Source: Elusimicrobiota bacterium
GTDB taxonomy: Bacteria > Elusimicrobiota > Elusimicrobia > F11
Length of the DNA stretch: 55,332 bases
Direction: 5' to 3'
Assembly (NCBI GenBank): GCA_003140895.1
Contig: PLLH01000036.1
Location: 9,929 to 65,260 of the forward strand
Position numbers and translations under genes: made by a program. How positions within the stretch are numbered: position 1 is the stretch's first letter; each line of letters starts with the position of its first letter. Shown here piece by piece: positions 30,029 to 32,815 of this stretch. The notes below the pieces were generated by a model. It searched no databases and was not told the origin of the DNA. It worked only from the letters and a program-made list of their open reading frames with translations.

Positions 30029-30057
30029 TTGACATGTTTTTTGTCCGAACCTATACT
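30029..30057 (+). promoter_or_regulatory. Strong sigma-70-type promoter of pilA
   Basis: TTGACA (30029-30034), 17-bp spacer, TATACT (30052-30057). Transcription would begin at about 30064-30065, exactly where the first arm of the leader hairpin starts. No other gene lies in the 160-base gap before pilA. Confidence 0.85.
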
Positions 30058-30128: not shown

Positions 30129-30629
30129 ATGAAACTCAACCGGAAATCCGGGTTCACACTCATCGAACTTATGATCGTCGTCGCCATTATTGGTATCCTG
30201 GCAGCTGTTGCCATTCCTAAGTTCGCTGACCTTGTGACCAAATCAAGAGAAGCCAACGCCAAAGCGACACTCGGTTCAGTCCGAAGCGCCCTCAGCATTT
30301 ACTACGGGGACTTGGATGGATCCTATCCGTCTAACTTGTTCGTAGCCCTCACGACAGACGCGAAGTACATGCCGTTCATGAAAGGACAGCCCAGCCTGGG
30401 AGTCTTCTTCATTCCAAACCATAAACAAAACCAAGGGCATGTCAGTGCTCTCTATCAGAACGTTAACGCTGCCGCAGGCGTTCTGCACGACTCTGCAGCG
30501 ACCGGCATGACCCCAACAGATGCGACGCCGCTCCTCTACAACACAAACTCCAGCAACAACCAGTTCGGAGAAGTGTTGATCAACTGCACACACAACGACA
30601 CCAAGGGTTCAGTCTGGACAACGTACTAA
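30129..30629 (+). CDS. pilA: Type IV major pilin-like protein (type IVa prepilin)
   Basis: The 166-aa prepilin has a short basic leader (MKLNRKSG) and the prepilin peptidase site G8|F9 with glutamate at mature position 5 (FTLIELMIVVAIIGILAAVAIPKF). A hydrophobic N-terminal helix and a globular domain rich in Asn, Thr and Ser follow. The only cysteine is Cys153 near the C terminus, so the usual disulfide-bonded D-loop of type IVa pilins cannot form within one subunit; the layout is closer to GspG-like pilins. Its perfect AAGGAGG ribosome site, own strong promoter and own terminator point to high expression as the major subunit. Confidence 0.9.
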   Translation: MKLNRKSGFTLIELMIVVAIIGILAAVAIPKFADLVTKSREANAKATLGSVRSALSIYYGDLDGSYPSNLFVALTTDAKYMPFMKGQPSLGVFFIPNHKQNQGHVSALYQNVNAAAGVLHDSAATGMTPTDATPLLYNTNSSNNQFGEVLINCTHNDTKGSVWTTY

Positions 30630-30649
30630 TCATTCGTCTTTAGAAAACA

Positions 30650-30687
30650 GAAAGGCGGTCGCCAGTGGCGACCGCCTTTCTTGTTTT
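30650..30687 (+). terminator. Rho-independent terminator after pilA
   Basis: A perfect 14-bp stem (30650-30663 with 30667-30680) with a 3-nt loop is followed by TTGTTTT. It isolates pilA as a single-gene unit. Start codons proposed for pilD upstream of 30714 would overlap its tail. Confidence 0.9.
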
Positions 30688-31554: not shown

Positions 31555-31583
31555 TTGACAATGCACCAGAGTGAAAATAGACT
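31555..31583 (+). promoter_or_regulatory. Sigma-70-type promoter of pilMNOPQ
   Basis: TTGACA (31555-31560), 17-bp spacer, TAGACT (31578-31583). Transcription would begin near 31590, leaving a structured leader of about 95 nt before pilM. Confidence 0.78.
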
Positions 31584-31605
31584 TCAAAGTGAGTTGACGC
31601 GACAA

Positions 31606-31695
31606 ATGTTGAACAACAAAACGCCGAGTGATCGTGGGATGCATGCATCCGCATTCCGATACGGCGTTTTTTTATGGGTAACTTATGAATCTTGA
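31606..31695 (+). other. Possible 29-codon leader ORF overlapping the pilM start
   Basis: An ATG at 31606 opens a frame of 29 codons that runs through the whole leader hairpin and stops at 31693-31695, eleven bases past the pilM ATG in another frame. Its ribosome site is weak. It could couple translation to pilM, which lacks its own Shine-Dalgarno sequence. No composition or homology evidence supports it as a gene. Confidence 0.25.
31618..31673 (+). promoter_or_regulatory. Terminator-like nested hairpin in the pilM leader (candidate attenuator)
   Basis: AAAACGCCG (31618-31626) pairs with CGGCGTTTT (31662-31670), and the T run continues to 31673. Inside the loop, ATCG/CGAT arms flank a perfect 14-base palindrome (31637-31650). 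It lies between the pilM promoter and its ATG, so it would terminate or pause its own operon's transcript rather than the upstream gene's alone. Confidence 0.6.
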
Positions 31696-32815
31696 ACAAC
31701 TGAAAAACTTTAAATTGAAGATTCCTTCCCTGAAATTCTTGAGGCCCAAAGATATCCTCGGAATTGATATGGGATCGACCTCCGTCAAGATTGTCCAAAT
31801 TTCCGGAAGAAAACTGGTTCGCTGGGCCTATAAAGAGCTGGATATCAAAGATGCGGCCCCTGAAGTGGCGGTGGGAGACAAAATGAACGCCACCACCCAA
31901 ATCATCAATGAGCTTTTACTGCAGCATCCCAAACGTCCGTCCACGGCCGCCATTTCTGTCAGCGGCAATTCCGTCATTGTCCGATACGTCAAACTCCCCA
32001 AACTAAGCCGTTCGGAACTTGAAAAAACCATCCAATTTGAAGCCGAACCGTATATTCCCTTCGCCATCCCGGAAGTCAACCTCAGCTTCCATATTTTGGG
32101 AGATATTGTTGAAGAAGGTCAGGCGAAGATGGAAACCGTTCTGGTGGCGGCCAAAAAAGAGCTGATTGGGCAGCGGCTGGGCGTCCTCTCCTCCGTGGGG
32201 CTGCGCCCGGTGGTTGTGGATGTTGATTCCTTCGCATTGGAAAACGCGTATGGCCTCATTCATCCGCCATCGGAAGAGCCGGAAACCGTCTTGCTCCTCA
32301 ATATAGGAGCGAACGTGACAACGATGATTATTATGGAGAACGGACTTTCTCGCGTTGTCCGCGATGTGTTTATCGCGGGGAACTCGATCAATAAATCTCT
32401 CCAGCGAATTTTTGACTGTTCCTACGAAGAAGCTGAAAATCTTAAAAAGAAGGGGCAGATTCTCGTGACGCCCGATGAAAAAGAAGCCACGCTCGCCCAA
32501 GATGATCAAGATGCCCTTCAAATCTCCAATACGATTGTTACGGTGGTCAAAGATTTGGTGGCCGAAATTCAGCGTTCACTCGACTTTTTCTTGTCTCAGC
32601 ATCCAGATCGCCAAATCAACCGGATTCTTCTCTGTGGCGGGTCCTCGCGCATCAATGGCATCGACCGGTATTTCTCTCAAGAACTCCGCATCAACGTTGA
32701 TGTATTTGATCCGTTCACCGGTCTCATCGGAGACGATGTGCCGCCAGCCGATTTAAGAGCTTCTTTTGCCATCGCCATGGGCCTTGCCACGCGATGCGAA
32801 GGAGACAGCCTGTGA
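31685..32815 (+). CDS. pilM: Type IV pilus assembly protein PilM
   Basis: PilM is an actin/FtsA-like cytoplasmic ATP-binding protein that docks on the PilN N terminus. The 376-aa protein shows the FtsA-fold phosphate loops (ILGIDMGSTSVKIVQISG and the later LLNIGANVTTMIIMENG), the FEAEPYIPF segment, and a C-terminal LLCGGSSRINGIDRYF motif. ATG 31685 has no Shine-Dalgarno and sits about ten bases after the T run of the leader hairpin. An earlier ATG at 31674 is out of frame and stops at once. The stop overlaps the pilN start. Confidence 0.93.
   Translation: MNLEQLKNFKLKIPSLKFLRPKDILGIDMGSTSVKIVQISGRKLVRWAYKELDIKDAAPEVAVGDKMNATTQIINELLLQHPKRPSTAAISVSGNSVIVRYVKLPKLSRSELEKTIQFEAEPYIPFAIPEVNLSFHILGDIVEEGQAKMETVLVAAKKELIGQRLGVLSSVGLRPVVVDVDSFALENAYGLIHPPSEEPETVLLLNIGANVTTMIIMENGLSRVVRDVFIAGNSINKSLQRIFDCSYEEAENLKKKGQILVTPDEKEATLAQDDQDALQISNTIVTVVKDLVAEIQRSLDFFLSQHPDRQINRILLCGGSSRINGIDRYFSQELRINVDVFDPFTGLIGDDVPPADLRASFAIAMGLATRCEGDSL

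Follow-up and report, generated by a model that had tools for sequence, protein, structure and literature searches.

In dozens of bacteria of the class Elusimicrobia, the type IV pilus assembly operon, pilMNOPQ, is preceded by a terminator-like hairpin that carries a conserved tag, CGCCGAG, in its ascending arm and lies between the promoter and pilM. Comparison of related genomes shows the order promoter, tag, hairpin, T-run and pilM, selection on the predicted fold, conservation of the tag and its recurrence at other genes. Termination at the hairpin, its conditional nature and the reading of the tag by a factor are what we infer. On balance, the sequences favor a promoter-proximal transcription attenuator of the pilus assembly operon that is opened by a factor through the tag.

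A tagged hairpin separates the pilM promoter from pilM

The window, by which we mean the whole stretch of DNA analyzed, comprises 55,332 nt of an Elusimicrobiota bacterium (GCA_003140895.1, contig PLLH01000036.1, positions 9,929–65,260, forward strand); coordinates below are window positions. The pilM locus contains these features:

31555–31583, + strand: sigma70-like promoter of the pilM operon, TTGACA-17-TAGACT
31606–31695, + strand: 29-codon ORF through the hairpin, extending in frame to a TTG at 31594; its frame is not kept in relatives, so that it is probably no conserved gene
31618–31670, + strand: terminator-like hairpin with outer stem AAAACGCCG/CGGCGTTTT, internal loop and variable apical stem, supported by fold and covariation
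31622–31628, + strand: tag CGCCGAG in the ascending arm, kept across leaders and enriched behind the promoter type
31637–31650, + strand: 14-base DNA palindrome GGATGCATGCATCC within the apical region, which varies widely in sequence from relative to relative; the palindrome is not conserved
31667–31673, + strand: T-run (7 T) of the terminator-like element, supported by the sequence and by T-runs in relatives
31685–32815, + strand: pilM, first gene of the operon (PilM_2, E 2e-59), with no clear Shine-Dalgarno sequence
32794, 33420, 33949 and 34458, + strand: starts of the downstream operon genes pilN, pilO, pilP and pilQ

An earlier note on this DNA had described a promoter ahead of pilM, a hairpin running into seven T and a pilM gene without a Shine-Dalgarno sequence, and all three are found as placed. 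TTGACA (31555–31560) and TAGACT (31578–31583), separated by a 17-nt spacer, give 10 of 12 promoter matches; AAAACGCCG (31618–31626) faces CGGCGTTTT (31662–31670), and four of the seven T can pair with the A run at 31618–31621. The palindrome reported in the loop is present as well, but the predicted minimum-energy RNA fold does not self-pair it and forms an apical helix UGGGAUGC/GCAUUCC(G) instead. By folding energy alone the window hairpin is moderately unusual (z −2.3; 3 of 200 shuffles), and it can be placed beyond chance because it is conserved in relatives.

A Pfam scan of the operon proteins from pilM to pilP gave matches to PilM_2, PilN and PilO and none for the protein in the pilP position. 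The gene neighboring the leader in the window encodes a prepilin peptidase, where many relatives have a divergent gene for a HAD-like protein (LLFDYGGTLDADG...; G043, G040, G059, G216, G018, G033 and others). A pilin-like gene (30129–30629) has its own near-consensus promoter (30029–30057) and a strong 15-pair terminator (30649–30681) and is therefore probably transcribed apart from the pilM operon.

The leader is conserved across the class

A search of 60 relatives found a true PilM in 42, and in these the DNA upstream of pilM was read by hand, without any model. The leader lies directly upstream of pilM in 27 of these 42, with a common layout of promoter, (G/A)CGCCGAG, variable stem, GGC(G), T-run and pilM; the leader of G004 sits on a separate contig. 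In nearly all relatives the hairpin follows a TTGACA...TATAAT-like promoter. The element is absent from 15 of the 42, including G001 from the window's own family, and must therefore be dispensable, as several pilM genomes do without it. G008 and the G010/G029 pair are further cases of loss. Upstream of pilM in G001 (L043), the nearest member of the family to have a good genome, there is neither hairpin nor tag; the promoter and an (A/T)TGACGC segment, comparable to that at window position 31594, are kept.

A covariance model built from 22 leaders was run over 235 genomes of the class. Its strong matches that have the promoter context are on the pilM strand, immediately upstream of that gene, and extend to families beyond the training set. 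Matches in f10, a mostly pilM-less family, proved to be ordinary short-loop terminators where examined; thus, a match that lacks the promoter context is no evidence for the element. In all, 56 genomes of the class Elusimicrobia carry the element. Across 341 genomes of the phylum, a single match fell outside the class, and it was 35 bases long, the size of a short-loop hairpin. On a PilM tree of 47 rows, which left out families f3 and f14 (both without the element), the tag label needs four changes, a number that fits an ancestral element with several losses.

The fold is maintained while the apical stem varies

Anatomy was measured in 53 leaders. The T-run is at least 5 nt long in 49 of them (short or missing runs occur in G036, G032, G028, G011 and G019), and the terminator score is above 0 in 52. 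In sequence, the element corresponds to an intrinsic (Rho-independent) terminator, with a stable G+C-rich hairpin followed by a U-run. The tag is flanked on its outer side by a G-C pair in 21 of the 53 leaders, a G-U pair in 13 and an A-U pair in 8.

Apical stems do not align across the class, and for this reason RNAalifold returned only 3 pairs from a class-wide MAFFT alignment; we turned instead to folds of single sequences and to an alignment within one genus. In that alignment, two pairs of the apical helix have changed on both sides (5 cells) when the true register is used, and slid registers give zero compensatory changes. Inner sequences, stripped of the tag and the closing bases, fold better than their dinucleotide shuffles (mean z −2.3; p ≤ 0.05 for 31 of 48). 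Comparison among leaders thus shows an apical stem that varies in sequence yet stays paired in the predicted structures, as a fold under selection does.

The distance from the T-run to the pilM start ranges from 0 to 118 nt. The start is only 0–1 nt past the T-run in eight leaders, so that there is no space for a second promoter in between, and only the promoter upstream of the hairpin is compatible with this spacing.

CGCCGA is present in 53/53 leaders and the following G in 51/53; the leaders were gathered through the tag, which makes part of this invariance a matter of construction, and the 42 genomes read by hand give a fairer estimate. In the predicted folds, A6 of the tag is unpaired in 19 leaders and position 7 in 35. 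Thus, pairing alone does not explain why these two positions are conserved. CGCCGAG was also considered as a DNA uptake or repeat sequence, and this was rejected: the window contains 11 copies vs 12 expected. The leader pattern occurs in the window's own genome at counts near those of the reversed control.

Tagged promoters of the same type occur at other genes

In 57 genomes, 48 sites match the pattern TTGACA-N11..15-TGTTA-N5..35-CGCCGAG, and 22 of these are not at pilM. The reversed pattern has 0 matches in the same genomes. Placing the reversed tag GAGCCGC at the same position gives 3 matches, two of which are inside pilM leaders, and the reverse complement CTCGGCG gives 4. The tag element thus recurs at several loci beyond chance, in the manner of a multi-gene cis-regulatory motif, or regulon. 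In the window's own genome the pilM copy alone scores.

After a looser pattern had been added, non-pilM sites with an evident terminator hairpin were found at genes for a response regulator (L107), exported proteins with YCF48, FlgD-Ig or Por-tail domains (L212–L215), an Amidase_3 enzyme and its homologs (L231, L232, L234), a HEAT-repeat protein (L233) and exported proteins without assigned function (L106, L207, L216, L218). At L231–L234 the closing arm and the T-run fall within the first codons, so that the hairpin encloses the start codon; in these four, the 5' CGCCGAG pairs with a CUCGGCG-like sequence, and the T-run lies inside signal-peptide codons (LGVFLLL). About half of the 22 non-pilM sites have no terminator, and the tag may therefore do something else there.

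At L211 (664–2166, genome G019), a tagged promoter lies upstream of a gene whose single chain combines a FliF/YscJ C-terminal domain with FliG middle and C-terminal domains. L244 (131–300) has a predicted promoter whose predicted transcript would contain ACUCGGCG, the tag's complement, and L245 holds the counterpart from G220. This predicted transcript, which came from control-pattern matches in G219 and G220, looked like a possible partner RNA but has no Rfam match.

These sites raise the tentative idea, which we think may well be wrong, that CGCCGAG is a 5'-end RNA tag of a post-initiation regulon, in which a putative RNA-binding protein or small RNA would read the tag in nascent RNA and antiterminate the pilus assembly operon together with genes for envelope and exported proteins. 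The tag would then lie in the terminator arm itself, without a separate antiterminator structure.

A model for control of pilus assembly and its alternatives

In the mechanism that we propose, RNA polymerase would start a short way upstream of the hairpin. By default the operon would be OFF, with the CGCCGAG-led hairpin and the U-tract ending transcription before pilM. A trans-acting factor, either an RNA-binding protein or an RNA with CUCGGCG, would recognize the tag in the nascent ascending arm and prevent the hairpin from forming, so that the pilMNOPQ transcript could pass. The reader may be an aptamer embedded in the terminator, an RNA partner containing CUCGGCG or an RNA-binding protein. 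In many leaders, the RNA upstream of the hairpin is too short for a separate aptamer. If the mechanism is right, the element would be a new class-wide family of cis-regulatory RNA in mostly uncultured bacteria and would indicate a regulator that reads RNA. Because a short, constant tag stands in an otherwise variable element, the claim can be tested directly.

The main rival, which we regard as unlikely, assigns the element a post-transcriptional role in translation or stability: the hairpin would shield the 5' end of the mRNA and the U-rich stretch would aid ribosome binding (S1-type), with no termination. The pilM ATG directly follows the T-run in G018, G033, G221, G232, G234 and G009, and several leaders, that of the window among them, lack a Shine-Dalgarno sequence, in line with such a role. 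However, T-run length shows no dependence on how far away pilM starts (Spearman p 0.36), and the run is equally long where pilM begins 30–118 nt further on (mean 6.8 vs 6.2). Some of these distant pilM genes have a Shine-Dalgarno sequence of their own, and a translation role leaves their long T-run unexplained.

A reading that is less probable still has the pilM promoter making a small RNA: the short terminated transcript would be the actual product, and pilM would depend on read-through for its expression. Many small RNA genes do have a promoter with a compact terminator-like hairpin right behind it, as the pilM leader does. Yet the only invariant sequence of the leader is mostly in the stem, several genomes have almost no single-stranded 5' end and the element is tied to pilM across the class.

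The earlier note had raised attenuation or translation coupling on the basis of a layout with a 29-codon frame at 31606–31695. Attenuation ahead of the assembly genes is well supported by the comparison; the small ORF and the coupling are not. The frame exists and extends in frame to the TTG at 31594, it ends 11 nt inside pilM, and G001 has a similar short ORF, with the (A/T)TGACGC start region common to the family. However, the hairpin is 45 nt in the window and 50 nt in its closest relative, G002, and with this 5-nt difference the frame is not kept. An ORF that starts past the predicted transcription start and crosses the hairpin is found in 12/53 leaders and missing from 41/53, and there is no run of regulatory codons. 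In the 35 leaders with a close promoter, the predicted transcription start is 0–21 nt before the tag, so neither a leader peptide nor a separate antiterminator helix can be a general feature. We therefore rejected a conserved leader ORF of the kind that a ribosome-mediated attenuator has. The leader sequences make attenuation likely and its ribosome-mediated form not likely; that translation of the 29-codon ORF governs the hairpin or couples to pilM seems to us very improbable. A short ORF ending just inside pilM is possible for the window's family alone (G000, G001). With respect to the comparison with related genomes that the note had called for, the hairpin is conserved and the small frame is not.

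We give equally little credence to a DNA-level operator, in which CGCCGAG would be a transcription-factor site and the hairpin incidental. As an operator might, the tag does turn up at other promoters of this type, even where no terminator follows. But enrichment is confined to one orientation (48 matches, against 4 for the reverse complement), the distance from promoter to tag varies from 36 to about 100, and the apical stem covaries. Finally, although terminator-like elements are common and the window fold alone reaches no more than z −2.3, an ordinary terminator of the upstream gene or a chance structure is barely conceivable and is refuted by the conservation data, as the hairpin is downstream of a conserved pilM promoter, is conserved class-wide and cannot terminate an upstream gene that is divergent in many relatives.

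Comparison with known systems

Attenuation at an intrinsic terminator is known, and the factor-opened attenuator that we favor for pilM would be a variant of it. A class-wide tagged terminator at a type IV pilus operon, with neither leader peptide nor antiterminator, was not found in Rfam or the literature searched. Rfam 15 gave no match at the gathering threshold, only irrelevant snoRNA or weak sRNA matches with E of 4 or more. The literature search found nothing on a CGCCGAG leader motif and no type IV pilus assembly genes gated by a terminator in their leader. A CsrA-controlled leader was rejected, as csrA is present in 1/60 genomes and that one (G008) lacks the tag.

RfaH/LoaP antitermination requires a NusG paralog. 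Elements of this type at long surface-structure operons resemble the pilM leader in placing a conserved element near the operon start. They differ in that the pilM element itself looks like a terminator and no NusG paralog accompanies it: exactly one NusG match was found in 56/60 relatives and two in none, and we rejected antitermination of this type.

The pil1 locus of Streptococcus gallolyticus is described as a pilus operon under attenuation-like phase variation (PMC3894217). Attenuation-like control of a pilus operon is the likeness to pilM; pil1 is another pilus operon, in an unrelated species.

Like ribosome-mediated attenuators of the trp, his and mgtC type, the pilM leader has a terminator hairpin, which a short ORF overlaps in the window. 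In contrast to theirs, this ORF is not conserved, finds no space in many relatives and has no regulatory codons.

Attenuators of the TRAP, PyrR, BglG/LicT and HutP types also have a terminator hairpin between promoter and operon and an element in the nascent RNA that a factor can read. None of their known binding motifs was recognized by eye in the pilM leader. Unlike these systems, the pilM leader contains no upstream antiterminator partner or extra leader, and in many genomes its predicted transcript begins at or near the terminator arm.
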